Shown here: piece after piece, positions 17,930 through 31,014 of the stretch | How positions within the stretch are numbered: the stretch's first letter is position 1 | How the letters are laid out: each line of letters starts with the position of its first letter | Assembly: GCA_029062895.1 (NCBI GenBank) | Contig: JAIDPF010000093.1 | Span: forward strand, 1-33,329 | Direction: 5' to 3' | Origin: Lachnospiraceae bacterium | GTDB lineage: Bacteria; Bacillota; Clostridia; Lachnospirales; Lachnospiraceae | DNA: 33,329 nt | The notes under the pieces: model-generated | Database searches by the model: none | What the model was told of the DNA's origin: nothing | What the model saw: the letters and a program-made list of their open reading frames with translations, nothing else | Program-made: the position numbers and the translations under genes

Positions 17930-18358
17930 TTAATTCGTTCCCACCAAACGAAGCATCTCCTGCAAACGTTGGTTCTCCGCTTTTTACTCGGCTAACTCTG
18001 CCGCCTGTTTAACATTCTCCGCTTTCTGCTTAGCTATCTCCGTCTCCTGCTTGGCATTTTCCGCCTTTTGCTTGGCAAGCTCTTCCTCTAAAATTAATAT
18101 AACTTCCGCCAGATACTCTGTCAATTCCTTTTCCGTAATCTTCTTTTTCCGTCTTAACCGAGATCGGAAACGGAGCATCTCGTATGGGTGATCGCGAAAT
18201 GCACGTCATAGGCAAACATACGGATCACCATTTCATGATCGTTTTTCATCTGACATTCCAGATGATAATAATCCGTGCCGCCTACCAGAAGCGCAATATC
18301 CATAAACAGCGGTTTGTGTCGTCAGAGTTTTTTCTGACATATGATCATCCTTTTATTT
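17930..18358 (-). pseudogene. Remnant of an Rpn/PD-(D/E)XK-nuclease transposase-like gene
   Basis: Read on the minus strand, fragments join in order: YVRKNSDDTNR, a frame change near 18310, FMDIALLVGGTDYYHLECQM and the following EMVIRMFAYDVHFAI, a frame change and probable internal deletion near 18185, then YEMLRFRSRLRRKKK, KELTEYLAEVILILEEELAK and a Lys-Gln-Lys-Ala-Glu repeat tail. TAA at 17984-17986 interrupts the tail, after which 17 more codons run to the TAA at 17930. The blocks are typical of Rpn recombination-promoting nucleases common in Lachnospiraceae. From memory of those proteins, several dozen residues are missing at the second break. At least three lesions make it non-functional. 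Confidence 0.7.
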
Positions 18359-18366
18359 TTTCTTTT

Positions 18367-18454
18367 GCTGCAATGCTTAAGTCATTGAAATCTTTTCCTG
18401 CAACAGTTAAAACTTTGCAATCTTTTTCCTGCAACGCTTAAATCACTGCAAACG
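18367..18454. repeat. Three imperfect ~30-bp direct repeats
   Basis: Units begin at 18367, 18397 and 18428 and share a pattern of TGCAA, 3 nt, TTAA, then a C, TTG or CTG, and AATCTTTT. They lie just upstream of the Rpn-like remnant. Spacers are absent, so this is not a CRISPR array. Confidence 0.6.
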
Positions 18455-18771
18455 CTAACGGGTTACCTTAAAACTGTGAAATGTGGCGAAACGCCAGAAT
18501 GTTTGGGCTGTCCAGACGGCAGTCGCAAATGTTTTTCACGTGTGCCAAGTATATCATCTATGATAGGACTTGTAAACAAATTTTTCAATTTTTAAAATTC
18601 ATTTTTGGATTTCCAAATTCAATTTGCAGGATTCCATAATTCATTTTTATATGGCAGAAAAGGTTCTGTTCATGAGGCGAAAAGGCAAAGATAATTTTCT
18701 CATAAAAAAGGACACAATTTCAGTTCTTTACATACTTTTTTCCAAATTACATTTCTTTCTCTTAATTATAT
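18455..18771. other. Intergenic stretch without recognised genes
   Basis: AT-rich sequence downstream of the first sigma fusion gene and upstream of the Rpn remnant. A 64-codon + frame inside it has no Shine-Dalgarno site and low-complexity composition. A short palindrome, TATCATCTATGATA, is at about 18552. From 18805 to 19000 I also see nothing further. Confidence 0.6.
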
Positions 18772-18804
18772 GTTTACTTCTGGACAATTTGTCCAGAAGT
18801 AAAC
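18772..18804. promoter_or_regulatory. 33-bp perfect palindrome
   Basis: GTTTACTTCTGGACAA (18772-18787) is the exact reverse complement of 18789-18804, with a single central T at 18788. No U-tract follows on either strand, so a terminator is unlikely. It could be an operator for a dimeric regulator or the ends of a lost mobile element. It is about 200 bp past the stop of the sigma gene at 19001. Confidence 0.65.
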
Positions 18805-19000
18805 TCCCATCTTCTTGACGTTCTTTTAGTATATATTATATTATCAACTAAGCTAATGCGTGTGTTCTCTTTGAGATACTTTTCCCTATAGAATAAAGCA
18901 TTTTACTGGTTTTTCTATGTTTTACACCAACGCCAATCATCTTTTTAAATAAATAAAAAAGTTAGCCCTGCTTCATTATCCTCTTTAGTATAACATTAAT

Positions 19001-20563
19001 CTAGTTATTATACCTATTATACTCTACATAAACCCATTCAATATCATCTACAAAAACTTCAAATGCCTCCGGACACTCTTCTGTAGCCCTCCTTAAAAAA
19101 TCAAACATATTTTCATTAACTTCTCGCTCTAATCCTGCATCTGTTAAAGAATCAAATCGCGTATAATAAATTACAATAAAATCTCCATTTTCATTTAAAT
19201 ATCCCTTCAAATAGTGGCTTTTAGTTCCTGAAAATCCGGATGTTTCAGTATCATAGATTGTATAAATTTTTGTATCCGAATCATATATATAATCAAAATA
19301 TACACTTCCAGCATCAAATGAACTAAGTATATACTTATCTATGTATATGTCCGATCCTTCATCCAGAAGATCCCTGCAAATATAACTTGCAGCAGGAAAA
19401 ATCCCTTCCGGATATCCTTCCTCTAACTGTTGCGCCCGTTCTTCCGCCTCTCGCTGGTCAACTTCGATTGCGGCATTGATTTCCGCATTCAGCATTTCCA
19501 GCGCTTCATCCGCTGTCTGCCCCTGAGCATTATCTCCTGTTCCACTCCCTGCCGTCTGTTCCTGCACGAAATCTCTCGTTCCTCCATTTGACGCTTCCTC
19601 GTCTTTGCTATTATTCATAAAAAATACTGCACCTACAGCAATTACCGCCACGATTGCTGCTGCTATTCCTATTTTAGCTATTAATGTATTCATTCCTGCT
19701 TTCATAATTCCTCCTTTTATACTATTCGCGCTACCGCTTATCGTATTTTGCACCGCTTCTCCTGTGGCTGCGGTGCTTCCTGTTGTTCCCGCCGCTTCTC
19801 CTGCGGCTGCGGCGCTTGCCGTTGTTCCCGCTGTTTCTCCTGCGGCTGCAGCGCTTCCCACTGCCCCTGCTGCCAGATGTACCCTGATGGCTTCCATAAT
19901 GTTGTGAAGCATATCCGGCACTGCCATGGATTCCGCTTCCTCATAAAGCAGCCTCATCAGCAGCGGCAGTCCCACAACAGAGTAAAGCTTGTCGCCGCTT
20001 TTGTTTTCGTATGCGTCTACGCCGTCCCTGATCTTAGCACGGGCAACACTCAGCCTATTCATTACTGTTCCCGGCAGACATTCCATGATATCTGCGATCT
20101 CACTGATCGCTAATCCGTTGAAATAATAAAGTATGACCGTTTTGTACTGGATATCAGAAAGCGTATTTCTCATAATATCCATCACAAGTTTCCTTTTTTC
20201 TTTTTGGGTGATATACTCCTCCGGAAGAAAATTTTCATTTTCTTCTGTCAGCTCATCAACTGCATCATCAATCTCCATAAAGACTGCAGCTTTTTTCATT
20301 AGTATTTTCTTGCAACGATTTACTGCTATTCTGTTGATCCATGGAACAAATTTTTCAGCATCATTCAGAGAAGCAAGTTTCTCATAGGCAGTGGTATATA
20401 CCTCCTGCATCACATCCCTTGCATCCTCCTCATTGCCAAGAAAGTTAATGCAGGTAAAATACACCTTTTTGCAGCTGATTGAATACAGTTCTTCAAATGC
20501 CGCATGATCTCCCTGTTTCGCCTTATCAACTAACTCTCTCAATCGTTTTTCTTCCATTTTCAT
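19001..20563 (-). CDS. ECF sigma factor fused to a transmembrane helix and outer domain (paralog 1)
   Basis: 520 aa. Residues 20-90 are sigma region 2 (FEELYSISCKKVYFTC, NEEDARDVMQEVYTTAYEKL, FVPWINRIAVNRCKK). About 120-182 is region 4 (LSDIQYKTVILYYFNGLAIS, EIADIMECLPGTVMNRLS). Then follow a conserved KLYSVVGLPLLMRLLYEEAE block (192-211), an Ala/Gly/Thr linker with 13-residue repeats (232-282), a transmembrane helix (295-316) and an outer domain (320-520) unlike that of the other paralogs. Ordinary ECF factors end near residue 180-200. The fusion should hold the sigma part at the membrane, perhaps until cleavage or a conformational signal. The Pro-Gly in region 4 has Leu-Pro instead of Pro-Pro of paralogs. 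An internal ribosome site is at 19703-19714. GGAGGAG lies 4 nt before the ATG. Confidence 0.88.
   Translation of the reverse strand: MKMEEKRLRELVDKAKQGDHAAFEELYSISCKKVYFTCINFLGNEEDARDVMQEVYTTAYEKLASLNDAEKFVPWINRIAVNRCKKILMKKAAVFMEIDDAVDELTEENENFLPEEYITQKEKRKLVMDIMRNTLSDIQYKTVILYYFNGLAISEIADIMECLPGTVMNRLSVARAKIRDGVDAYENKSGDKLYSVVGLPLLMRLLYEEAESMAVPDMLHNIMEAIRVHLAAGAVGSAAAAGETAGTTASAAAAGEAAGTTGSTAATGEAVQNTISGSANSIKGGIMKAGMNTLIAKIGIAAAIVAVIAVGAVFFMNNSKDEEASNGGTRDFVQEQTAGSGTGDNAQGQTADEALEMLNAEINAAIEVDQREAEERAQQLEEGYPEGIFPAASYICRDLLDEGSDIYIDKYILSSFDAGSVYFDYIYDSDTKIYTIYDTETSGFSGTKSHYLKGYLNENGDFIVIYYTRFDSLTDAGLEREVNENMFDFLRRATEECPEAFEVFVDDIEWVYVEYNRYNN
19703..19718 (-). promoter_or_regulatory. Internal Shine-Dalgarno and ATG inside sigma paralog 1
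   Basis: On the minus strand AAAAGGAGG (19710-19718) is followed 4 nt later by ATG (19703-19705), in frame, at Met287. Translation from here would give a helix-plus-outer-domain protein without sigma. The spacing is slightly short. Paralog 2 has the same arrangement. Confidence 0.5.
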
Positions 20564-20564
20564 C

Positions 20565-20600
20565 TTACTCCTCCTTGCCTACTTCGGCAGCTCCTTTCAT
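20565..20600 (-). CDS. Short coupled upstream ORF of sigma paralog 1
   Basis: ATG AAA GGA ... GAG TAA, 11 codons (MKGAAEVGKEE), ending 1 nt before the sigma ATG. Its first codons are also part of an AAAGGAG site, so conservation with the other leaders may reflect that rather than a peptide. Translation is not shown. Confidence 0.25.
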   Translation of the reverse strand: MKGAAEVGKEE

Positions 20601-20700
20601 AGTCTGCGGTTTTCGTCCGTCTGCCGCAATTTTACCTCCTCATATATATAGATACCTTTTTTTAACAAAATATTAGATTTTTCTTCAAATTTATCAGGAA

Positions 20701-20730
20701 ATAACAGGCAAGAACTTTCCTGCCTGTTAT
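20701..20730 (-). terminator. Terminator hairpin after the coiled-coil gene
   Basis: ATAACAGGCA (20701-20710) pairs with TGCCTGTTAT (20721-20730), extendable inward past one mismatch. On the minus strand ATTTCCTG follows, a weak U-tract. A near copy lies at 30255-30284 before sigma paralog 3. Confidence 0.6.
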
Positions 20731-20778
20731 CATAATAGCCAGAGAGCCCCATTTATACAGAATACCATCTATCAAAAA

Positions 20779-20871
20779 AACCTCCAAACTGGTAATGAAC
20801 TGACCCCCAATTGTTAAACTTAAAATCCTAACAATCGGCAGTCAGTTCATTTTTACTCCAATTTGAAGGTT
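20779..20871. mobile_element. MITE-like inverted-repeat element
   Basis: Two arms of about 40 bp, 20779-20816 and 20829-20871, face each other around 12 bp. TGAACTGAC...TTGTTA in the left arm matches the reverse complement of the right arm with 3 mismatches in 21, and the outer AACCTCCAAACTGG matches CCAATTTGAAGGTT reversed with 2. No coding content. It looks like the joined ends of an insertion sequence, or a MITE, lying between a gene and its terminator. Confidence 0.55.
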
Positions 20872-20899
20872 CCTAAATACTTTGGAATACTGTTGTCTT

Positions 20900-21796
20900 C
20901 TATAGTTCTTTATCCACCAGCAGACCCTTAACATCCTCTGCTGCCAGCTGCAACTCGCCTACCACCAGTTCCAGAGACTTCTTCATATCCGGAAGGTTGC
21001 TGTTTTCCTGCTGCTTGCGGATCTCTTCCTGTTCCTGCTGAAGCTCCACCAGATCCTTCGTATCCTTCTCGATCCTGTCGTCCTTTTCTTCCCGTCTTTC
21101 TTTTGCCGCTTCGATCCTTTCTTCCAGCAGTTCCTCTTCTTCCTTCTTCTCTTCTGCTTTTTCTTTTGTCTCTTCCATATCCTGATCGACTTTATTCTTA
21201 ACTTCTTCTGTCAGAATACCGATCACATTTTTCTCCGCAGCTTCCAGAATCTCTTCGCCCTGCTCCTGCGCATCCAGCATATCATGATGCTTTAAACGCT
21301 CTAACTTCATACCACGTGCAACAGCATATGCTGCGCGCATATCATCCTCCTGCCTGGCTTTTTCTTCCTGCAAGTCTGCCAATGCACCTTCCAGCATCTT
21401 TTTCTTCTCTGCCGCATCCTTATCGTCAGGATCCACATCTTCCAGTTCCGCAAGATCCCTTTTAGCAGCTCCGATCCTCTCATCCGTTTCCTTTGCGAGT
21501 GCTCTAAGCTCCTCAGCGTGGGCATTCTGCTCATCTATCTCCGTAAGCTCCGCCTGATCCTTTACCTTTACCTTATCCACGAGATACTGGGCGATCTCCT
21601 TCGCCTTTCTTCTTTCCTCTTCAACCTTATCCTGTCCCAGTCCCCACCAGCGCAATTCTCCGGAATAGATCGCACCGCTTTGCTTCTTCTGATTTTTCTG
21701 ATCGTCTTTGATCTCCTGCAGCGATCTTGTACGTCCCCCCACGGTATCCGCCGTCGTCTGCAGCTGTCTTTCATTACCATTATTTACAATCTTCAT
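20900..21796 (-). CDS. Coiled-coil hypothetical protein
   Basis: 298 aa, no family recognised. There is no signal peptide or membrane segment. After an N-terminal polar region and a short GELRWWGLGQDKVEEERRKA motif (about 47-66), the protein is nearly all charged helix, very rich in Glu, Lys, Asp and Arg (for example KEKAEEKKEEEELLEER-like runs), ending in a less charged tail LQLAAEDVKGLLVDKEL. It should form an elongated cytoplasmic coiled coil. GGGAGGCGGAG sits directly before the ATG. It lies between sigma paralog 1 and the HAD/ATPase pair; a role with either is unproven. Confidence 0.75.
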   Translation of the reverse strand: MKIVNNGNERQLQTTADTVGGRTRSLQEIKDDQKNQKKQSGAIYSGELRWWGLGQDKVEEERRKAKEIAQYLVDKVKVKDQAELTEIDEQNAHAEELRALAKETDERIGAAKRDLAELEDVDPDDKDAAEKKKMLEGALADLQEEKARQEDDMRAAYAVARGMKLERLKHHDMLDAQEQGEEILEAAEKNVIGILTEEVKNKVDQDMEETKEKAEEKKEEEELLEERIEAAKERREEKDDRIEKDTKDLVELQQEQEEIRKQQENSNLPDMKKSLELVVGELQLAAEDVKGLLVDKEL

Positions 21797-21941
21797 ACTC
21801 CGCCTCCCTGCATTTAATTTATCTGTGGTTATAAATGTAGTTATAAAATATCCATCCGTGGATATACTACATATTTTTTATCGGCATGAATGAAGAAAAC
21901 CTTAATATTTTGTCCCCATATTAATAAATGCTTTTCATCAA

Positions 21942-22673
21942 TCACTCCGAAAAAACTGCTCTTGGAGGAGTAGCATCCCCCAACTTCCCCAGCAGTTCCA
22001 TAATATCCTCCGCCTGCTCTGCAAACTGCAGATCTGCTCCGTACTCACCCTGCAGGTCTGCCTGCAGTCTGTCCCATGTCTGCTCCAAAAACGCCCTTTC
22101 GCGAAATCCCCATAAAACTGCCATGCAGGGCAATCCTGCATTGACTGCCGTAGCAAGATCCACGTCGGAATCTCCGATATAGACTGCTTCTTCCTTACTG
22201 CTGCCAAGTTCCTTCAATGCCTGCCATACAAGATCGGGGGCCGGTTTTTTCTTTCCCGTTTCTGTCGAACCGATGGCAACCTGTATCTCAGGCGCAAAAA
22301 AATGACGGTTCAGTTCCTTTACCGCATGATCTGCCTTGTTAGATACGATCGCCATATGAAAACCCTTTTGGTACAGTTTCCTGATCAGTTCCGGAACGCC
22401 CCGATATGCCCTCGTCTTATCCATACAGTGGATATCATAATATTCCTTGAAGTATGCATATACCCTATCCGTCAGCTCTATAGAAGCATCTGTGGGAACG
22501 GCGCGTTCTATCAGCCTGCGGATGCCGTTGCCCACAAAGCTTCTGACCTCGTCGATACTTCTGCCCGGACAGCCGCATTGCTCCAACGCGTAGTTGACGG
22601 CATCCGTCAGATCCTCCAGCGTATCCAAAAGCGTACCATCCAGATCAAATATAACGGTTGTTATCTTTTTCAT
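21942..22673 (-). CDS. HAD phosphatase, phosphoglycolate phosphatase-like
   Basis: 243 aa. Motif I FDLDGTLLDT (residues 9-18), a helical cap with GNGIRRLIERA, motif II MAIVSNK, motif III Lys in GKKKPAPD and motif IV YIGDSDVDLATAVNAG are all intact, close to Gph-type enzymes in order and length. It should dephosphorylate a small phospho-metabolite in the cytoplasm. It starts 18 bp after the ATPase stop, so both are likely on one transcript. GGGAG lies 10 nt before the ATG. Confidence 0.88.
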   Translation of the reverse strand: MKKITTVIFDLDGTLLDTLEDLTDAVNYALEQCGCPGRSIDEVRSFVGNGIRRLIERAVPTDASIELTDRVYAYFKEYYDIHCMDKTRAYRGVPELIRKLYQKGFHMAIVSNKADHAVKELNRHFFAPEIQVAIGSTETGKKKPAPDLVWQALKELGSSKEEAVYIGDSDVDLATAVNAGLPCMAVLWGFRERAFLEQTWDRLQADLQGEYGADLQFAEQAEDIMELLGKLGDATPPRAVFSE

Positions 22674-22691
22674 ATTTCAATTTCTCCCGGA

Positions 22692-24092
22692 TCATTCTAT
22701 AATTTTTTCTAAAAGATCTTTATACTGCACCAGCGTAACATTTTCTAACTTACCCGCGGCTTCCGCACAGCCCTTTGTAAACCCATTTTTTGCAAATAGA
22801 TAAAAATGCATTTCGCTATAATGGAATATTTGGCTTCGCCTTACCAGCGTTTCTAAAACACTCGCATCTACCTTTTCATTTGTCCATTTACATTCGCCAA
22901 ACAATGCGGTATCTTTATCCTGTTCACCCATAATATCAATCTCCGCCTGACCATGGGTGGATGGATCAGTCCCCCACCAACGCCCAAGTTCCTTGAACTC
23001 TATAGGAGATTCACCGCATAATAATAGTTTCCAGAGATACTGCATACATATCTCCTCAAATACCTTCCCCATATAATGTGACAGGTATGGTTCGATCCGT
23101 TTATAGGCTAAATCCGTTACTCCACGGCCAATCATTGAATGATTCTCTGGTACAAACCGATACCAAAATCGAAACATATTATCATCGATAGTGTAAATCG
23201 ACTTTCGAGATTCCTTTTCTCCATAAGGGGTTTCCTTTTGAATCAATCCCAACGTCATTAGATTTTTCAAATAAGCAGCGCAGACGCTGGTATCCTCGCC
23301 AACCTTTGCAGATATTTCTGACATACGGGAAGCTCCTGCTGCAATAGCCGTTATAATGGCATTATAAAGCGCAGGCTCCCGTACCTCCTGCTTCAATAGA
23401 TTTTCCGGCTCCTCAAAGAGCGAGGATGTTGGATTCAGGAATGTATTCTTAATGTTCTCCTCAACGCTTCTTCTGTCATCCATTTGCAACAGATACTGCG
23501 GCGTTCCTCCCACCATGCCGTAAACCAGAGCTTTGTCTTCGCCGGAAAAATTTTTGAAATACCGGCATGTATCTGCAAAATCAAATGGCAAGATCTTCAT
23601 TTGCGATGTCCGTCTGCCATAAAGCGGCGCTTTGTAGGCAAGCACATGGTCTTCCATATAAGACATTGAGGATCCACAGAGAATCAGCATCAATTTTGAA
23701 CTGTCTTTATATTTATCAATAAAAAGCTGTAAAGTAGACGCAAGACTCTTGGAAGACCGCGCCACATATGGATATTCATCGATTGCTAAAATGAGACGGT
23801 CTTTTTCCGCCAGCTTAAAAACATATTCTAATGCTGCCTGAAACGAAATAAAGGCCGTTTCAACCGGAATATCTGTTCCAAATTCCATAATAGTTTTACT
23901 AAAATTTTCCAGATTCTGTTTTTCGTTACTCTCTACCCCCATAAAGTAGATTGCCTTCTTATCCCTAATAAATTGAGTGATGAGCGCGGTTTTTCCCACA
24001 CGACGTCGTCCATAAATAACTGCAAACTCAAATTTATCAGATATATATAATTTATCAAGGGCTGCCAGCTCACGCTCTCTACCAATAAACAT
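22692..24092 (-). CDS. ATP-binding protein, archaeal-ATPase / DUF234 family
   Basis: 466 aa, soluble. The N-terminal ATPase domain has MFIGRERELAALDKLY, Walker A IYGRRRVGKTAL (27-37) and Walker B LILAIDEYPYVA near residue 100. A winged-helix-like segment (about 250-300) follows, with SEISAKVGEDTSVCAAYLKN. The C-terminal DUF234 part contains EIDIMGEQD and ALFGECKWTNEKVD, a D...ExK arrangement as in PD-(D/E)XK nucleases. Such proteins are common, often near mobile or defence genes, with no settled function. ATG follows GGAGG by 7 nt, and a promoter with direct repeats is upstream. Confidence 0.9.
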   Translation of the reverse strand: MFIGRERELAALDKLYISDKFEFAVIYGRRRVGKTALITQFIRDKKAIYFMGVESNEKQNLENFSKTIMEFGTDIPVETAFISFQAALEYVFKLAEKDRLILAIDEYPYVARSSKSLASTLQLFIDKYKDSSKLMLILCGSSMSYMEDHVLAYKAPLYGRRTSQMKILPFDFADTCRYFKNFSGEDKALVYGMVGGTPQYLLQMDDRRSVEENIKNTFLNPTSSLFEEPENLLKQEVREPALYNAIITAIAAGASRMSEISAKVGEDTSVCAAYLKNLMTLGLIQKETPYGEKESRKSIYTIDDNMFRFWYRFVPENHSMIGRGVTDLAYKRIEPYLSHYMGKVFEEICMQYLWKLLLCGESPIEFKELGRWWGTDPSTHGQAEIDIMGEQDKDTALFGECKWTNEKVDASVLETLVRRSQIFHYSEMHFYLFAKNGFTKGCAEAAGKLENVTLVQYKDLLEKIIE

Positions 24093-24120
24093 ACTATTGC
24101 CTCCATTCCTTATTATCTCA

Positions 24121-24149
24121 ACTTTAGCACACAGGTTTCAATTAGTCAA
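24121..24149 (-). promoter_or_regulatory. Candidate promoter of the DUF234 ATPase gene
   Basis: On the minus strand, TTGACT (24144-24149), 17 bp, TAAAGT (24121-24126), some 30 nt before the ATG. Confidence 0.5.
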
Positions 24150-24156
24150 TTACGAT

Positions 24157-24182
24157 TTACTAATTTATATCTTACTAATTTA
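24157..24182. repeat. 11-bp direct repeats upstream of the ATPase promoter
   Basis: TTACTAATTTA occurs at 24157-24167 and 24172-24182, 15 bp apart, just upstream of the -35 box. A partial GATTTAC copy follows at 24184. A possible binding site for a regulator. Confidence 0.45.
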
Positions 24183-24210
24183 AGATTTACCAAAAAAATT
24201 GTTTCCAATA

Positions 24211-24263
24211 TAAAAAAGAGGGTTTCCAGAAAAGTCACACCATGACTTTCAGGACACCCTCTT
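24211..24263 (-). terminator. Rho-independent terminator of sigma paralog 2
   Basis: AAGAGGGT...ACCCTCTT arms (24216-24263) form a long interrupted stem, including GAAAGTCA paired with TGACTTT. On the minus strand TTTTTTA follows directly (complement of 24211-24217). Confidence 0.75.
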
Positions 24264-24298
24264 ATCCAAATTACTTTCCGGAACGAAAACGCTCTCCC

Positions 24299-26245
24299 CT
24301 ATTCAAAATCATATACATCTTGAATGATCTCTAGCGAATCAGGATACTTCTCTTGTATGTACTCATAAACATCCTTTGTAAGATACGTCACAATACAAGT
24401 AGTGCTGCTATAAGAACCGCCAACGGCAATTTCAACAACAGGAATTTGCAGAATATAATCCCCTCTGTCATATACCAGCCGATAACTTATAGTTCCACCT
24501 CCTAAAGATACAGTTTCAGAAAATTCTTCATCTTCCTCTCTGTCTACATACGATAATTGACTATTACGACAATTAGCTACCATCGAAGGTTTCCCAAGGA
24601 TCTCCATAAGCTCCGTAAGCGCCTCTCTGTTATCTGCCAGATTCCCACTATTATATGGCACACCAAACACCGCAAATGCATCCCCATGCGCTGCATTAGC
24701 ATCATATTTAAACTGACCATTCTCTATGCACTCCCAAATCGTCACCTCGGAATCTGTCAAATTGTAAATTTGAACCTTCATTTGATCGCTATAATTATCC
24801 TCCTCCGTATAACACCAAATGTCTAAAGAATTATAATATCCTGCTCCTATCGTATTTGTGTTTGCCCATTCTTTAAACTCCTCTAGAGAATTTAAAGCCG
24901 GTACATAAGTTATAAACCCACTGTCATTGGGAGAGCAATACTCATGTATACTAAAATTGTTATATGAAGATATCATTTCCTCCAAACTTGTGCCAAATGC
25001 AAACTTATCATAAAACATAAGATTGCTAAAATCCATCTCCTCCAGCATCCCCAGATTGGCATACTTAAACCAGAACGGTGGGTAACCGCTCTCCTCAATC
25101 ATATCCCAGTCGCCGGAAAATTCCACCACCTGACCCTGTGTATCATCTCCTGCACCGCTCCCTGACACTTGGTCCTGTGCATCACCTTCCGATCCATGCC
25201 CTGACGTCTGTCCCTGCGCATCGTCACTCCCTGATGTCTGCTCCTGTGCGTCGTCTCTCCTTCCCCTGCCTGACGCTTCCTCTTCTCCGCTATTTCTAAT
25301 GAGAAATACCGCTCCTACGGCAATTACCGCTACGATTGCTACTGCTATTCCTATTTTCGCTATTAATGTATTCATTCCTGCTTTCATAGTTCCTCCTTTT
25401 ATACTATTTGCGATACCGCTTATCGTATTTTGCACTGCTTCTCCTGCGGCAGTACCGCTTTCTATCGTTCCCGCTGCTTCTCCTGCGGCTGCTGTGCTTT
25501 CCGTTGTCCCTACAGTTTTTCCCACAGCTGCAGCACTTTCCACCGCCCCTGCTGCCAGATGTCCTCTGACGGCTTCCATAATTTCCTGCAGCATATCCGG
25601 CACCGCCCTAGATTCCGCTTCCTCATAAAGCAGCCTCATCAGCAGCGGCAGTCCCACAACAGAATAAAGCTTTTCTCCGCTTCTGTTTTCATATGCATCC
25701 ACGCCGTCCCTGATCTTGGCACGGGCAACACTCAGCCTATACTTTACCGTTCCTGGCGGACATTCCATAATATCCGCGATCTCATCAATCAACAATCCGT
25801 TAAAATAATAAAGTATGACCGTTTTGTACTGAATATCGGAAAGCGTATTTCTCATGATATCCATTACCAGTTTTCGTTTTTCCTTTTGGGTAATGTACTC
25901 CTCAGGAAGGAAATTTTCGTTTTCCTCCGTCAGCTCGTTGCCGACCTTCTCAGCGTCCGTAAAAACCGCCGTTCTTCTCATCAGAAGCTTCTTGCACTTA
26001 TTTACCGCGATCTTGTTTATCCATGGAATAAATTTTTCAACATCGTTAAGCGAAGTAAGTTTCTCATAGGCGGTGATGTAAACATTCTGCATCACATCCT
26101 TTGCATCCTCCTCATTGCGAAGAAAGCTGATACAGGTAAAATACACCTTTTTGCAACTAATAGAATACAGTTCTTCAAATGCCGCAGGATCTCCCTGTTT
26201 TGCCTTTTCAACTAACTCCCCTAATCGATTTCCTTCCATTTTCAT
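24299..26245 (-). CDS. ECF sigma factor fused to a transmembrane helix and outer domain (paralog 2)
   Basis: 648 aa. Sigma region 2 is at 20-90 (NEEDAKDVMQNVYITAYEKL), region 4 at 120-182 (EIADIMECPPGTVKYRLS), then the KLYSVVGLPLLMRLLYEEAE block, an Ala/Gly/Thr/Glu linker, a transmembrane helix at 295-318, a Gly/Ser/Asp/Gln linker with DAQxQxSG repeats to about 375, and a C-terminal domain. That domain starts YPPFWFKYANLG, carries NLTDSEVTIWECIENGQF, and ends YDFE; it is shared with paralog 3 and the sigma-less gene at 26439. The sigma parts of paralogs 1-3 are nearly identical in long blocks. Met287 follows AAAAGGAGG. Own promoter-like motif at 26311-26340 and terminator at 24211. No anti-sigma gene adjoins it. 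Confidence 0.9.
   Translation of the reverse strand: MKMEGNRLGELVEKAKQGDPAAFEELYSISCKKVYFTCISFLRNEEDAKDVMQNVYITAYEKLTSLNDVEKFIPWINKIAVNKCKKLLMRRTAVFTDAEKVGNELTEENENFLPEEYITQKEKRKLVMDIMRNTLSDIQYKTVILYYFNGLLIDEIADIMECPPGTVKYRLSVARAKIRDGVDAYENRSGEKLYSVVGLPLLMRLLYEEAESRAVPDMLQEIMEAVRGHLAAGAVESAAAVGKTVGTTESTAAAGEAAGTIESGTAAGEAVQNTISGIANSIKGGTMKAGMNTLIAKIGIAVAIVAVIAVGAVFLIRNSGEEEASGRGRRDDAQEQTSGSDDAQGQTSGHGSEGDAQDQVSGSGAGDDTQGQVVEFSGDWDMIEESGYPPFWFKYANLGMLEEMDFSNLMFYDKFAFGTSLEEMISSYNNFSIHEYCSPNDSGFITYVPALNSLEEFKEWANTNTIGAGYYNSLDIWCYTEEDNYSDQMKVQIYNLTDSEVTIWECIENGQFKYDANAAHGDAFAVFGVPYNSGNLADNREALTELMEILGKPSMVANCRNSQLSYVDREEDEEFSETVSLGGGTISYRLVYDRGDYILQIPVVEIAVGGSYSSTTCIVTYLTKDVYEYIQEKYPDSLEIIQDVYDFE
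25385..25400 (-). promoter_or_regulatory. Internal Shine-Dalgarno and ATG inside sigma paralog 2
   Basis: On the minus strand AAAAGGAGG (25392-25400), 4 nt, ATG (25385-25387), in frame at Met287. The downstream residues MKAGMNTLIAKIGIA align with the start MKEGKNTLIAKIGIA of the sigma-less gene at 27407. Confidence 0.5.
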
Positions 26246-26262
26246 CTTGTTTCTCCTTTCAT
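26242..26262 (-). CDS. Short coupled upstream ORF of sigma paralog 2
   Basis: Six codons, MKGETR, whose TGA overlaps the sigma ATG (ATGA). Same position and MKG start as before paralog 1. It may be only the AAAGGAG site read as codons. Confidence 0.25.
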   Translation of the reverse strand: MKGETR

Positions 26263-26310
26263 GGTCCGCGAATTTAGCCCATCTTACGCAATTTTACCTC
26301 CTTAATAAAG

Positions 26311-26340
26311 ATAGATTCTTTTATTTAATTAAAAGGTTGG
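26311..26340 (-). promoter_or_regulatory. Candidate ECF-type promoter of sigma paralog 2
   Basis: On the minus strand CCAACC (26335-26340), 18 bp, ATCTAT (26311-26316). The AAC core at -35 and a short -10 fit ECF promoters in general. Paralog 3 has the same motif with a 17-bp spacer. Downstream of both is AAGGAGG, then a leader of about 55-65 nt. Confidence 0.45.
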
Positions 26341-26364
26341 AATTTTTTTATTTTTTACCCAAAA

Positions 26365-26393
26365 ATCCCTATGCCTTCCTCCGGCATAGGGAT
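26365..26393 (-). terminator. Rho-independent terminator of the sigma-3 operon
   Basis: ATCCCTATGCC (26365-26375) and GGCATAGGGAT (26383-26393) are perfect arms with a 7-nt loop. On the minus strand TTTTT follows. It separates the sensor-only gene from the paralog 2 promoter. Confidence 0.8.
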
Positions 26394-26438
26394 CCTTTTC
26401 TGTTTCAATGCGGGTTCCTGTTACGCTCTTTCTCTCTC

Positions 26439-27407
26439 CTATTCAAAATCATAATGTTCCATCTCCACACTCTCCAATGTTTCCCCCGACAAATACTCAA
26501 AATAGCCACTTGTATAATATGACAGTCGACATAAAATTTCGTAAACACCGTCATGGCAATTCTCAACAACCCCAATGTCCAGAATATATTCCCCTCTTTC
26601 ATACATCAGATGATATCTTATACTTCCGCCGCCTCTAAATACGGTTTCAGCAAATTCTTCCTCGCCCTCTCTGCCCGTTTCCGATATATCATTAGAGGAA
26701 GCCAGTACCATAGTTGGCCGTCCCAAAAGTTCTACCAGTTCCGTCAATCCTTCTTTGTTATCCGTATATTGCACATATGGAACAGGAATGCCGAAAATTT
26801 CCCATCCAATTGTATAAGGACTTTCATATACGAATTGGTTATTCTCTATACATTCCCAGACCGTGACCTCGGAATCCGTCAGGTTGTAGATCGAAATTAT
26901 CATATCACCAATACCGCTTTCCTTCTCAACATGACAGTTAAATGCCGTGTCGCGGCCATCCATCGTTTCCGCGGTTGCCCATTCCTTAAACTCTTCCAAA
27001 GAATCATAATTACTAAAAGGAGGGTCAGATTCAAAAGCAACAAAATAATCATAAGCTGATATCGCCTCTTCCAGACTTATGCCAAATGCAAACTTATCAT
27101 AAAACATAAGATTGCTAAGATCCTTCTCCTCCAGCGCCCCAAGATTGGCATACTTTAACCAGAACGGCGGGTAACCATACTCCTCAACAGCATCCCAGTC
27201 AACGGATGATCCTGATGCCTGCCCCTGTGCATTACTTTCCGATTCATGCCCTGATGTCTGTTCCTGTGCGTCGTCTCGCGTTCCCCCGCCTGACGCTTCC
27301 TTTTCTCCGCTATTTTTAATAAGAAATACCACTCCTACGGCAATTACCGCCACGATTGCTACTGCTATTCCTATTTTAGCTATTAATGTATTCTTTCCTT
27401 CCTTCAT
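26439..27407 (-). CDS. Membrane-anchored outer-domain protein, sigma-less paralog of the sigma fusions
   Basis: 322 aa from the chosen ATG. It begins MKEGKNTLIAKIGIAVAIVA, matching Met287 onward of sigma paralogs 1 and 2, so it has the same transmembrane helix (about 8-31), a short Gly/Ser/Gln linker (DDAQEQTSG) and the same C-terminal domain (YPPFWLKYANLG, NLTDSEVTVWECIENNQF, final HYDFE), but no sigma factor. A TTG start at 27428 is in frame, yet GGAGAAAG fits the ATG better. It is third in an operon after paralog 3 and a polytopic membrane protein, 24-45 bp downstream. It could compete with, or form dimers with, the sigma-linked sensors (inference). Confidence 0.85.
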   Translation of the reverse strand: MKEGKNTLIAKIGIAVAIVAVIAVGVVFLIKNSGEKEASGGGTRDDAQEQTSGHESESNAQGQASGSSVDWDAVEEYGYPPFWLKYANLGALEEKDLSNLMFYDKFAFGISLEEAISAYDYFVAFESDPPFSNYDSLEEFKEWATAETMDGRDTAFNCHVEKESGIGDMIISIYNLTDSEVTVWECIENNQFVYESPYTIGWEIFGIPVPYVQYTDNKEGLTELVELLGRPTMVLASSNDISETGREGEEEFAETVFRGGGSIRYHLMYERGEYILDIGVVENCHDGVYEILCRLSYYTSGYFEYLSGETLESVEMEHYDFE

Positions 27408-27452
27408 AATTTCTTTCTCCGATCTCAATTCTTCCTTACTTTTATGATATAG

Positions 27453-28358
27453 CTACAATGCCGGATTTTCCTCTTTTGCCTTTCCAAAAAGCTCCTTAAA
27501 TTTACCGGACAGTTTACACAGTTTATCATAAAGGTCATATGTAATCTGAGTCGAAGGCGCAACCTCCATGTAGGATACCATCATTTTAACCAACATCCAG
27601 CTGTCGATAAACGCAGATTTTAACGCTACGGCAAACATCAACGCAAGTAATACGGCACCTAACATATTCCAATCACATGCGCGGAAGACCGCACCAAAGA
27701 GCCCGAAGGGAACCACCCAGCATAAGAATGTCCCAATCATAACGATTACTGTAGTAATGAGCGCATCCTTTAACAGCTTCTTTGCATTCTGGAAATAAAT
27801 CACCACGCCGTCACAGGACGCCTTGAATGCGCCTTCTTCTTTTTTGATAAAGCAGTATCCCAGACAACATTCATCCACATAACCAAGGGCAATGCCGATA
27901 AACGTCTGTAGAAATTTGGTCAGCGTATCCATCCCCGGAATGGCATCCAGCATCCCGCCGACTTTGCCGACAGCTTTTTTCAGCTGGCTTACTGCCCCGC
28001 TCACCAGACGGTCAACCACAAAATATACATTGCTTGCAACAAAACGGGACTTCACCATCTCCTTACCATACTCAAACTGGTTCTCCGGCAGTTTCCCGGT
28101 TGTCACTGCTTCCGCAATCACCGCAACATGGCCGGCCTTGACAAGATACCCAAAATAGTGCATGAAAACATTATATATAACCCCAATACATGCCGACCAG
28201 ACAATAAACATTATGTATAGACCTGCACCCCCAAAAAGCGAACCGAGCAGCATAAAAAGAGCAAGCAGAATAGCTCCCACAAGCGTTACTGCAACTCCCA
28301 TCCCCAGTTTTATCCAGACGAACTTCATCGTCCCAAAATAAACGTCCTTTGCTTTCAA
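27453..28358 (-). CDS. Polytopic membrane protein of unknown function
   Basis: 301 aa with about five to six hydrophobic segments: two near 13-75, weaker ones near 140-175, then 200-222 and 226-262. A short cytoplasmic-looking tail ends FKELFGKAKEENPAL. The sequence between helices is basic. I do not recognise a transporter signature; the repeated small-residue helices recall choline-transporter-like proteins only vaguely. It starts 17 bp after the stop of sigma paralog 3 and ends 24-45 bp before the sensor-only gene, so the three are one operon. Its link to sigma control suggests it could be a partner or target of the sensor. Confidence 0.75.
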   Translation of the reverse strand: MKAKDVYFGTMKFVWIKLGMGVAVTLVGAILLALFMLLGSLFGGAGLYIMFIVWSACIGVIYNVFMHYFGYLVKAGHVAVIAEAVTTGKLPENQFEYGKEMVKSRFVASNVYFVVDRLVSGAVSQLKKAVGKVGGMLDAIPGMDTLTKFLQTFIGIALGYVDECCLGYCFIKKEEGAFKASCDGVVIYFQNAKKLLKDALITTVIVMIGTFLCWVVPFGLFGAVFRACDWNMLGAVLLALMFAVALKSAFIDSWMLVKMMVSYMEVAPSTQITYDLYDKLCKLSGKFKELFGKAKEENPAL

Positions 28359-28375
28359 TATTTTATCCTCCTTAA

Positions 28376-30118
28376 TTATTCAAAATTATAAATCTTATCG
28401 CTCATGATATATGAAGCATTATAAAAATATGAAACATGTGAAGCTGCATGAATAGCGCTGTCGTTCTCCAGCAGATAATCATAAACGTCCTGCGTCAGGT
28501 AAAACAAATCCACCCATGTATCAGCTCCCGCTGGAGTAATATATTCGCTAATACGCAAGCTCAGAATATGATCTCCTTTGATATATACTATATTATAGTA
28601 GATCCATCCGCCGCCTTTAGAGACTGTCTCAGCAAATGTCTCTTCCTCTTCATCCCTCACCTCCCACCAAGAATTACTGTCATATGTTACCATGGTTGGT
28701 TTTCCCAAAATTCCTACCAGCTTCGCAAGTTCCTCTCTTTTATCAAAGTCAAGTAACGTACCAAGCATGGCGTTGTTTGCATTACAGACAAACCAATCAT
28801 TTTCTATACACTCCCGGATCGTGGCCTCGGAATCTGACAGATTGCAAATTGCTATGCTTACATCATTGTCATAGTTTCCCTCCTCAGTATAACAACCTAG
28901 CTCCACCATCTCATTTGGACCCAGCGTATGATCGTCAGCATATCCCGTCTGTCCTGTGGTAAAATCACATTCCTCACCATCCACCCGAATATAATGATAC
29001 GATGGCAATATCTCCTCCAGACTTGCGCCATATGCAAACGTATCATTGATCATAAGGCTGCTAAAATCATTCTCCTCCAGCGATCCTAAATCGGCATACT
29101 TTAAATAGAACGGAAGGCAGTCATATTCCTCAACAGCGTACCAGTCAACGGATGGTTCCTGCTCCGGTTCATTTTCACTTACTGACGGCTGCTCCGGTTC
29201 ATCTTCACTTACTGACGGCTGCTCCGGTTCATCTTCTACCATGTCCATGTCCGGTGCTTCCTCTCCACCACGGTTTCTAATGAAGAATACAGCGCCTACA
29301 GCAATTACCGCTACTACCGCCGCCGTTATTCCTATTTTAGCCATTAATGCACTTTTTCCTGCCGTTTTTCCGGCTGCTGTAGCGCTTTCCGTCGTTCCTC
29401 CCGCAGCTCCAGTAACTTCCGCCGCCCCTGCTGTCAAATATGACTTGACGGCTTCCATCATTTCCTGCAGCAGATCCGGCATATTCATAGAATTGGCTTC
29501 CTCATAAAGCAGCCTCATCAGCAGCGGCAGTCCCACTACAGAATAGAGCTTGTCACCGCTCCTGTTTTCATATGCATCTACACCGTCTCTGATCTTGGCG
29601 CGGGCAACGCTCAGCCTGTACTTTACCGTTCCGGGCGGGCATTCCATAATGCTCGCGGTTTCCTCAATCGACAATCCGTTAAAATAATAAAGTATGACCG
29701 TTTTGTACTGGATATCGGAAAGGGTGTTCCTCATGATATCCATCACCAGTTTCCTTTTCTCCTTTTGGGTGATATACTCCTCAGGAAGGAAATTTTCGTT
29801 TTCCTCCGTCGGCTCATCACCTGCATTTTCAACATCCATAAAAACCGCTTGTCTTTTCATCAGAAGCTTTTTGCACTTATTCACTGCAATTTTGTTCATC
29901 CATGGAATAAGTTTTTCCGCATCGTTAAGCGCGTTAATCTTCTCATAAACAGTGATATAAACGTCCTGCATCACATCCTTTGCATCCTCCTCATTGCGCA
30001 AGAAACTGATGCAGGTAAAATATATCGACCTGCTGCTGACGGAATACAGTTCCTCAAACGAAGTCTGATCCCCCTGCTTGATCTTATCAACTAACTTACT
30101 TAACTGATCTTTATCCAT
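28376..30118 (-). CDS. ECF sigma factor fused to a transmembrane helix and outer domain (paralog 3)
   Basis: 580 aa. Sigma region 2 is at 20-90, region 4 at 122-180 (SIEETASIMECPPGTVKYRL), then the KLYSVVGLPLLMRLLYEEAN block, a shortened linker (230-258), a transmembrane helix at 261-281, an acidic Pro/Glu/Ser linker with 10-residue repeats (EDEPEQPSVS) to 322, and an outer domain homologous to paralog 2 (LPFYLKYADLG, NLSDSEATIRECIENDWF, final YNFE). The shorter linker has lost the internal AAAGGAGG/ATG found in paralogs 1 and 2. It heads an operon with the polytopic protein and the sensor-only paralog, so here the sensor-only product comes from a separate gene. GGAGG lies 9-10 nt before the ATG. 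Confidence 0.9.
   Translation of the reverse strand: MDKDQLSKLVDKIKQGDQTSFEELYSVSSRSIYFTCISFLRNEEDAKDVMQDVYITVYEKINALNDAEKLIPWMNKIAVNKCKKLLMKRQAVFMDVENAGDEPTEENENFLPEEYITQKEKRKLVMDIMRNTLSDIQYKTVILYYFNGLSIEETASIMECPPGTVKYRLSVARAKIRDGVDAYENRSGDKLYSVVGLPLLMRLLYEEANSMNMPDLLQEMMEAVKSYLTAGAAEVTGAAGGTTESATAAGKTAGKSALMAKIGITAAVVAVIAVGAVFFIRNRGGEEAPDMDMVEDEPEQPSVSEDEPEQPSVSENEPEQEPSVDWYAVEEYDCLPFYLKYADLGSLEENDFSSLMINDTFAYGASLEEILPSYHYIRVDGEECDFTTGQTGYADDHTLGPNEMVELGCYTEEGNYDNDVSIAICNLSDSEATIRECIENDWFVCNANNAMLGTLLDFDKREELAKLVGILGKPTMVTYDSNSWWEVRDEEEETFAETVSKGGGWIYYNIVYIKGDHILSLRISEYITPAGADTWVDLFYLTQDVYDYLLENDSAIHAASHVSYFYNASYIMSDKIYNFE
29161..29236 (-). repeat. 30-bp tandem coding repeat
   Basis: Two full 30-bp units (29161-29190, 29191-29220), differing at one base, and 16 bp of a third. 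They encode the 10-residue EDEPEQPSVS repeats of the paralog 3 outer linker. Confidence 0.85.
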
Positions 30119-30119
30119 T

Positions 30120-30170
30120 TTATCCTAATCCTCCTTTCACGGTCCGCCATTTGTCCCGTCCTTTGTGCAT
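30120..30170 (-). CDS. Short coupled upstream ORF of sigma paralog 3
   Basis: ATG at 30168-30170 after AAAGGAGG, 16 codons, TAA at 30120-30122, 1 nt before the sigma ATG. An internal GTG-AAA-GGA matches the MKG starts before paralogs 1 and 2. Translation is unproven. Confidence 0.3.
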   Translation of the reverse strand: MHKGRDKWRTVKGGLG

Positions 30171-30187
30171 GTTCCTCCTTTTACTTT

Positions 30188-30216
30188 ATAGATTCCAATT
30201 TTTCATAAAAGGTTGG
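30188..30216 (-). promoter_or_regulatory. Candidate ECF-type promoter of the sigma-3 operon
   Basis: On the minus strand CCAACC (30211-30216), 17 bp, ATCTAT (30188-30193), matching the motif before paralog 2. It is about 70 nt before the sigma ATG. Confidence 0.45.
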
Positions 30217-30254
30217 GATTTTGATTAAATTTTTTAAAAATTTTTAAGAAGAAA

Positions 30255-30284
30255 ATAACAGGCAGGAACCTTCCTGCCCGTTAT
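30255..30284 (-). terminator. Terminator hairpin after the J-domain gene
   Basis: ATAACAGGCAGGAA (30255-30268) pairs with TTCCTGCCCGTTAT (30271-30284), one mismatch. ATTTTCTTC follows on the minus strand. It is a near copy of the hairpin at 20701-20730. Confidence 0.65.
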
Positions 30285-30330
30285 CATCATCCCATTAGGT
30301 ATAATAATATCCTAATACTATAATTTCTAA

Positions 30331-31014
30331 TCATGACTCTTTTATCAGCCTGTTATATTCTTCTGTAATTTTATTGAATACCTCAGAAGATCCATTCCCG
30401 GCATCCGGATGATAAACCTTGCACAAATCTCTATAGCGTCGCTTGATACTTGCGGCGTCCTTACAGCCGTTAAAAAATCCAGGAGAAGGTGCTTCCGATC
30501 TCTTACGTTCCTGCATTTGGCGTTCCTGCCATTCCCTTCTGGCCTGCTGTCTCTGATACTCCTCATATGCCTCATCATCTACTTCATCATCTTCATCGCC
30601 GTAATCTTCATAATCCGCCATTTGAGAAAATAAATTCTTTTTCAAAATGAAATATCGGATAATCGTGAAAACATCCAACACCGGTCCGCCAAAGCAGATC
30701 ACCGCCCCGATCAGCGTATACCATACTTCGCCCATTTTTTCCATATTGTATTGCCATACGCCAATTAGAACGACGGCGACGATGATGCCAATTAGATAAT
30801 TACCGGTCATTTTGATCAAAAGCCCAAAATAAGAAAGGACACCGTAAATCATAAAAAAAGAAACAATCGTTTCCAGAATATTTTCCTTAAATCTATCCAT
30901 ACTAAACTGACACATAGCGCCCGCAACGATCAGAAAAGTGAGTATCAGTTTCCCCGGAATACCTGCCATCCGGCTTCTCAACTCCGCCAATTTTACTATC
31001 TTTAGTTCATCCAT
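30331..31014 (-). CDS. Membrane protein with C-terminal J domain
   Basis: 227 aa from the chosen ATG. Four or so hydrophobic segments fill residues about 18-130, followed by an acidic and Gln/Arg-rich linker (DYGDEDDEVDDEAYEEYQRQ) and a short J domain at the end: DAASIKRRYRDLCKVYHPDA, with the HPD tripeptide that stimulates DnaK. The C-terminal J domain behind a membrane part would recruit Hsp70 to the membrane. The frame opens at 31065, but GGGGGAG lies 7 nt before the ATG at 31014, 4 bp after the thioesterase stop, so the two genes are coupled. No function beyond this is evident. Confidence 0.8.
   Translation of the reverse strand: MDELKIVKLAELRSRMAGIPGKLILTFLIVAGAMCQFSMDRFKENILETIVSFFMIYGVLSYFGLLIKMTGNYLIGIIVAVVLIGVWQYNMEKMGEVWYTLIGAVICFGGPVLDVFTIIRYFILKKNLFSQMADYEDYGDEDDEVDDEAYEEYQRQQARREWQERQMQERKRSEAPSPGFFNGCKDAASIKRRYRDLCKVYHPDAGNGSSEVFNKITEEYNRLIKES

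Follow-up and report, generated by a model that had tools for sequence, protein, structure and literature searches.

A clostridial family of predicted membrane-tethered ECF sigma factors with exchangeable outer domains

How might a sigma factor be controlled when its putative sensor and membrane anchor are parts of its own chain? This question is raised by three genes in a stretch of 33,329 nucleotides from a Lachnospiraceae bacterium (GenBank assembly GCA_029062895.1, contig JAIDPF010000093.1), here called the window, which is contig C109 of a draft genome of 3.07 Mb (115 contigs, 97.9% complete). Each gene, here named W1, W2 and W3, encodes an extracytoplasmic function (ECF) sigma factor, a linker, one predicted transmembrane helix and an outer domain. 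In our judgement, they probably represent a family of self-contained ECF sigma factors that are tethered to the membrane, carry exchangeable sensor modules on the outside and would be released from the membrane to activate their own genes. Contigs of the genome are denoted below by C, related loci by L and other genomes by G.

Architecture of the three genes and of their family

W1 (19001..20563, 520 amino acids [aa]) and W2 (24299..26245, 648 aa) consist of an ECF sigma part (residues 1 to 185), a linker, a transmembrane helix (298 to 316) and outer domains that are unlike each other (317 to 520 and 317 to 648, respectively). In W3 (28376..30118, 580 aa), the sigma part (1 to 183) is followed by a juxta-sigma segment and linker, a helix (262 to 280) and an outer domain (281 to 580). 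All window features given here with start and end lie on the minus strand. The three open reading frames (ORFs) are intact, with no internal stops. Sigma70_r2 and Sigma70_r4_2 are matched above the Pfam cut-off by each protein, TIGR02937 is also above its cut-off, and the presence of regions 2 and 4 without region 3 identifies the sigma parts as ECF type. The closest solved chain is SigW (5wuq), aligned over residues 11 to 179. In the linker and outer part of W1 to W3, from about residue 180 onward, no Pfam family was found above its cut-off. The linker is rich in Ala, Gly and Thr (63 residues counted in W1 and W2, 27 in W3). A single hydrophobic helix, called by a Kyte-Doolittle script and not by a dedicated topology program, is present in each protein, with Lys/Arg ahead of it and acidic residues behind it; it is predicted to run N-in/C-out, leaving outer parts of 204, 332 and 300 aa in W1, W2 and W3. 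For the outer domain of W2 (residues 377 to 648), a structural model reached a predicted local distance difference test score (pLDDT) of 83.6.

According to a preliminary description of the window, a complete ECF sigma factor, a linker, one helix and an outer domain are joined in one frame in each of the three genes, and no anti-sigma gene adjoins them. Its coordinates proved right, the Pfam search and the helix script agree with the proposed composition, and none of the five neighbouring proteins scanned (at 20900, 22692, 26439, 27453 and 30331) matches an anti-sigma family. Its gene list was incomplete, lacking a sigma-less copy within the window and four further fused genes elsewhere in the genome, both described below.

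The best conserved stretch outside the sigma domains, as seen in alignments, directly follows region 4 (KLYS....P.L..LL..EA....VP). This conservation would fit a built-in anti-sigma domain that is displaced by signalling. We regard that as doubtful, since the segment has no anti-sigma Pfam match and the Hx3Cx2C zinc signature occurs in 0/47 aligned family members; the full-length model is too poor (pLDDT 47) to judge the segment.

A scan of genome contigs yielded 79 related loci. Among the 55 ORFs examined, the sigma part is followed by one or more predicted helices in 43, contig ends truncate 3, and 9 encode ordinary short ECF sigma factors. The alignment comprises 47 members (7 from the window genome and 40 loci); sigma regions 2 and 4 are matched in every one of them, as is a helix whose flanking charges are positive on the inside. 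At E values up to 1e-38, a profile covering the sigma part and the segment behind it found matches in at least 40 of 397 genomes of the same family, and at least 57 matches were obtained, all 57 lying in frames of 369 to 951 codons; because the first scoring took at most seven candidates per genome, 40/397 is a lower bound. Within the genus, 6 of 35 genomes carry the family, and 17 of 392 genomes from other families of the order are positive at E values up to 1e-45.

These data also bear on the concern that the fusion arose from errors in assembly or gene calling, or that the genes are decayed pseudogenes, for which the draft state of the window genome in its 115 contigs would give some reason. 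We give this explanation practically no credence, since the same architecture recurs in those 40 genomes, including the single-contig genomes G073, G270 and G303, without stops inside the matches. Fusion of sigma, helix and outer domain is thus a trait of the family and not a product of chance or misassembly.

Two close relatives (L017 and L046) come from a bin titled Bacteroides sp., which is probably a mislabelled clostridial bin because of its neighbouring matches. Mobility was considered and set aside, as E values up to 1e-20 gave only two plasmid records and one phage record, at 31.5 to 32.8% identity.

Self-matched promoters and a proposed mechanism

Pattern searches placed putative ECF-type promoters upstream of W3 (30188..30216, CCAACCTTTT-n13-ATCTAT) and W2 (26311..26340, CCAACCTTTT-n14-ATCTAT), and W1 has a corresponding site with an altered -35 element (20648..20676, CTAATATTTT). 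The pattern CCAACCTTTT-n13/14-ATCTAT has two exact matches in the window compared with none in 100 shuffles, and similar sites lie upstream of many family members. Between this promoter and the gene, the 5' leader carries, by eye, a Shine-Dalgarno sequence and a very short ORF, often beginning AAGGAGGTAAAATTG; it is located at 26274..26305 in the window, is also found upstream of W1, W3, L009, L012, L018, L021 and L026, and recurs in the close clade. No RNA family was found at gathering scores in window positions 18000 to 31000.

The -35 bases track the dipeptide at residues 168 and 169 of the region 4.2 recognition helix, residues which we take, from sigma-E structures, to contact the -35 element. 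The dipeptide KY goes mostly with CCAACC, MN (W1 and L021) with TCTAATA, KS with ATGAAC(C/T), KK with TTTCACC and KA with TTAAACC; TY is accompanied by CCCAATA (L010a, L037 and L016) or CCCAACA (L030). For a test of this covariation, sites were picked without using the -35 bases under test, at a score limit of 13, which was reached by 28 of 60 upstream regions compared with 22 of 1200 shuffles. Tyr at residue 169 (or not) is associated with CC at -35 bases 2 and 3 (or not) at 13/3 versus 0/12 (p=1.5e-5), and Lys at residue 168 (or not) with C at base 7 (or not) at 20/3 versus 0/5 (p=5.7e-4). The crossed residue/base pairs show no association in the same 28-gene set (p=1.0 and 0.69), in which L030, L042, L056 and L059 are represented by sites that deviate from, or are offset relative to, those underlying the dipeptide assignments above. 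With the recognition helix left out of tree building, independent pairs on supported branches follow the two associations in 4.8/5 and 3.3/4 cases, and none goes the other way. L191, which is close to L011 and lies outside the test set, combines KS with ATGAACT, as expected. AAC-type -35 recognition is suggested by the computed self-promoters and the helix covariation in the core clade only, and for this clade the sequences support the view that a sigma part directs transcription from its own gene's promoter.

The region 4.2 helices of W2 and W3 are identical (PPGTVKYRL) and their promoters share one -35 class, so both should feed a single promoter class; W1 (LPGTVMNRL) has a class of its own. 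Since their helices are identical, W2, W3 and the copy on C94 should also cross-activate. The suggestion of the preliminary description that the three genes provide several parallel inputs thus holds for W1 and not for the pair W2 and W3.

These observations can be combined into the following mechanism. At rest, the chain would tether its own sigma part to the membrane. A signal acting on the outer domain would lead to cleavage outside the membrane and then within the helix, by a site-1 and subsequently a site-2 (M50) protease. The freed sigma part would join RNA polymerase and transcribe its own gene or operon together with its class-mates, and transcription of its own gene would provide more of the same sensor, that is, positive feedback. 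Release by proteolysis is plausible by analogy with the systems discussed below. More tentatively, and with somewhat less than an even chance, each gene may be a whole circuit of sensor, anchor, sigma factor, self-matched promoter and second start, in which lineages swap outer modules at a point shortly behind the helix and change region 4.2 jointly with the -35 element; such joint change would result in orthogonal circuits.

Several points weigh against this mechanism. Some genes fit the dipeptide assignments imperfectly: base 7 is T in L009 and L017 (KY, CCAACT) and in L011 (KS), and bases 2 and 3 read CA instead of CC in L042 and L059 (KY, GCAAACC). The weakness of their sites left 32 of the 60 genes out of the main covariation test, whose p-values ignore relatedness, and the tree-controlled tests comprise too few pairs to reach p=0.05; for the tree, moreover, 6 sites below the score limit were added and 4 (L030, L042, L056 and L059) were re-placed by hand. 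Distant members have no recognisable self-promoter, with the exception of L191, the close relative of L011. The genome encodes one homologue of the M50 site-2 protease, as do 14 of 14 control genomes. Finally, no convincing target outside the family was found in the genome among the 26 of 33 non-family promoter matches whose positions were examined. These 33 stem from a looser pattern with 38 matches genome-wide, the other 5 lying before family genes (17 matches in the reversed control); the strict pattern gave 4 matches, 2 of them at family genes (2 in the reversed control). Of the 26 matches, 21 lie inside ORFs of at least 100 aa and 5 outside (L106, L110, L114, L115 and L124), and only L124 precedes an ORF of at least 100 aa (189 aa) that starts within 250 bases downstream.

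Outer domains, a candidate internal start and gene neighbourhood

Only some outer domains of the 47 members belong to a firm family (LRR_5 in 5, SH3_3 in 5 and DUF5640 in 1). Single linkage of the outer parts of the 47 members and the sigma-less copy resulted in 14 sequence clusters, the largest of which (20 rows) does not yet separate W1-type from W2-type parts. At the DNA level, identity between W1 and W2 ranges from 67 to 94% in 25-codon bins as far as roughly alignment codon 350, a little beyond the transmembrane helix; from there on, the two are unrelated. With the gene on C21 (L011), the sigma part of which is only 45% identical to that of W2, W1 shares its outer part at 55% identity over 177 aa. 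Conversely, W1 and the gene on C94 have sigma parts that are 87% identical, and L048 and L049 share 83% of theirs, with no outer homology detected within either pair. As judged from these comparisons, outer domains have been swapped between conserved sigma chassis. W2-type outer domains also occur, by eye, in proteins with lipoprotein-like signals (L150, LTGC; L152, VIGC), which argues for an extracellular location of this domain.

Many family genes encode GG-x-M just ahead of the helix, and the underlying DNA, for example AAAAGGAGGAACTATG at residue 287 of W2, suggests a second start. Candidate internal Shine-Dalgarno sequences with an in-frame ATG are predicted in W2 (25385..25400) and, likewise at residue 287, in W1 (19703..19718). 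GGAGG or AGGAG precedes an in-frame start at this point in 26 of 47 core genes, compared with 77 of 1503 other in-frame starts, a control that contains some true gene starts. Synonymous shuffling of the same proteins already yields 14.7/47, so that the observed excess is about twofold; counted by lineage (n=16), internal starts amount to 7.1 observed versus 3.3 from shuffling. The strong site is missing in W3 and its relative L018 and, by eye, in L054, and an internal start is present in 0 of 31 distant members. Whether the start works, giving a sigma-less sensor from the same mRNA, appears to us evenly balanced on these sequence data; alternatively, it could be the fossil of a former two-gene operon.

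If the start is used, the outer domain could even be the main product, with many sigma-less anchored copies and a rarer full-length chain that gauges its own expression. The enrichment of the site over other in-frame starts fits this idea, as does the sigma-less gene that occurs naturally in the window, which by eye has an ATG at the same point, and so does the lack of a convincing promoter site outside the family among the matches examined in this genome. We nevertheless rate it as rather unlikely in view of the yield from synonymous shuffling alone and the absence of the site from the distant members and from W3, L018 and L054. Our preferred reading is that of a tethered sigma factor that is released and activates its own gene.

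The sigma-less copy (26439..27428, with a TTG start at 27428 or an ATG at 27407) encodes a transmembrane helix and a W2-type outer domain that is 49% identical over the outer part; by eye, its similarity to W1 and W2 starts at about the ATG. It is the last gene of a set that begins with W3 and continues, 18 bases downstream, with a gene for a membrane-protein-like protein of 301 aa without a Pfam match (27453..28358). The pair of W3 and the 301-aa gene is kept in L018/L193 and L054; in L193, a gene for a lipoprotein-like protein of 210 aa (L193:3179-3811) takes the place of the sigma-less copy. A terminator-like hairpin with a T run (26361..26393, by eye) follows the sigma-less copy and sets the W3 genes apart from the W2 promoter downstream. 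A gene for an archaeal-type ATPase (ATPase_2/DUF234, 22692..24092) is situated between W2 and a HAD-phosphatase-like gene. Judged by the first downstream gene, no partner recurs across loci, save for the W3-type set and a few tandem genes of the same family; in L036, L049 and L052, a second family gene follows about 160 to 210 bases downstream in the same direction.

The four further fused genes of the genome are located on C94, C3 (two, one running into the contig end) and C21, and C1 carries a family fragment truncated at the contig end. By eye, C30 encodes a more distant sigma-transmembrane-outer protein (L013:1972-3318), followed by a gene (L013:3366-4220) whose product of 284 aa has a lipoprotein-like signal and resembles it in the outer part. 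Also by eye, a sigma gene on C70 is followed by a gene for a 566-aa protein, and the two (L014:2201-4543) presumably resemble a SigI/RsgI-type pair.

Known systems and implications

The preliminary description had held the architecture to be more novel than it is. Membrane-bound ECF sigma factors in a single chain are known from the groups ECF48, ECF52, ECF53 and ECF243 (PMC8999054). In SCO4117 of Streptomyces (ECF52), sigma factor, transmembrane helix and outer binding domain form one chain, positive autoregulation has been suggested (PMC5826349, PMC8999054), and the truncated protein activates the gene that encodes it (PMC5826349). The predicted helix and outer domain in the same chain are a likeness to the present family. 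ECF52, ECF48 and ECF53 contain a zinc-finger domain on the cytoplasmic side as well as a region rich in proline, and ECF52 is reported only from Actinobacteria; in contrast, W1 to W3 have no zinc-finger match, the zinc signature is absent from the aligned members, and the present family has different, exchanged outer modules and several paralogues per genome.

In IutY of Pseudomonas putida (ECF243), the sigma factor is fused to a membrane-spanning C-terminal part and released by regulated intramembrane proteolysis involving Prc and RseP (PMC8999054). The present family shares the combination of sigma factor and membrane-spanning C-terminal part in one chain. However, the fused part of IutY is the membrane anti-sigma factor of an iron cell-surface signalling system, and the present family resides in a Gram-positive host. 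We presume the fused anti-sigma factor to be of the FecR type, for which no match was found in W1 to W3 at E values up to 1. Two clostridial groups are listed with extensions, ECF262 (Ruminococcus albus) and ECF288 (Blautia producta) (PMC8999054, Table 2). Compared by table entry only, the present family may belong to ECF262; ECF288 is described as cysteine-rich, whereas any Cys occurs in only 3 of 47 cytoplasmic extensions here. Our literature search, which did not extend to Casas-Pastor 2021 and Pinto 2020, returned no earlier account of this clostridial family. Since single-chain ECF sigma factors are known, yet the zinc-finger and FecR searches were negative here, we regard the family as a new variant with unusual modularity and not as a new principle.

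The cleavage and release step of the proposed mechanism is modelled on RsiV/sigmaV of Clostridioides difficile, in which a protein with an outer sensor and a single transmembrane helix is cut by a site-1 and then a site-2 protease (RasP) to free the ECF sigma factor (PMC9044953), and, for single chains, on IutY and SCO4117. Whereas RsiV and sigmaV are distinct proteins, the present family combines sensor, anchor and sigma factor in one chain. One-component regulators of the ToxR/CadC type act at the membrane, and the sigma part could likewise act while tethered and without cleavage, if a signal altered its conformation or clustering and polymerase were recruited to the membrane. The long flexible linker could let an anchored sigma part reach DNA, and no protease gene recurs just downstream of family genes (first gene examined). 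A sigma factor, however, has to accompany polymerase into initiation, and the single-chain membrane ECF sigma factors with available data, IutY and SCO4117, are activated by proteolysis or truncation, which makes action without cleavage improbable in our view. As an architecture, the one-protein signal transduction proposed in the preliminary description has good support, to which the putative self-recognising promoters add.

For gut bacteria, the family would offer in a single gene what otherwise takes a two-component system or a sigma/anti-sigma pair. Its sensors are exchangeable on a fixed chassis, changes in region 4.2 specificity can be read directly from sequence, and its sigma/promoter pairs are candidates for orthogonal parts of natural origin. 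If the internal start is real, it would illustrate how a single gene can fix the proportion of sensor to signalling chain.

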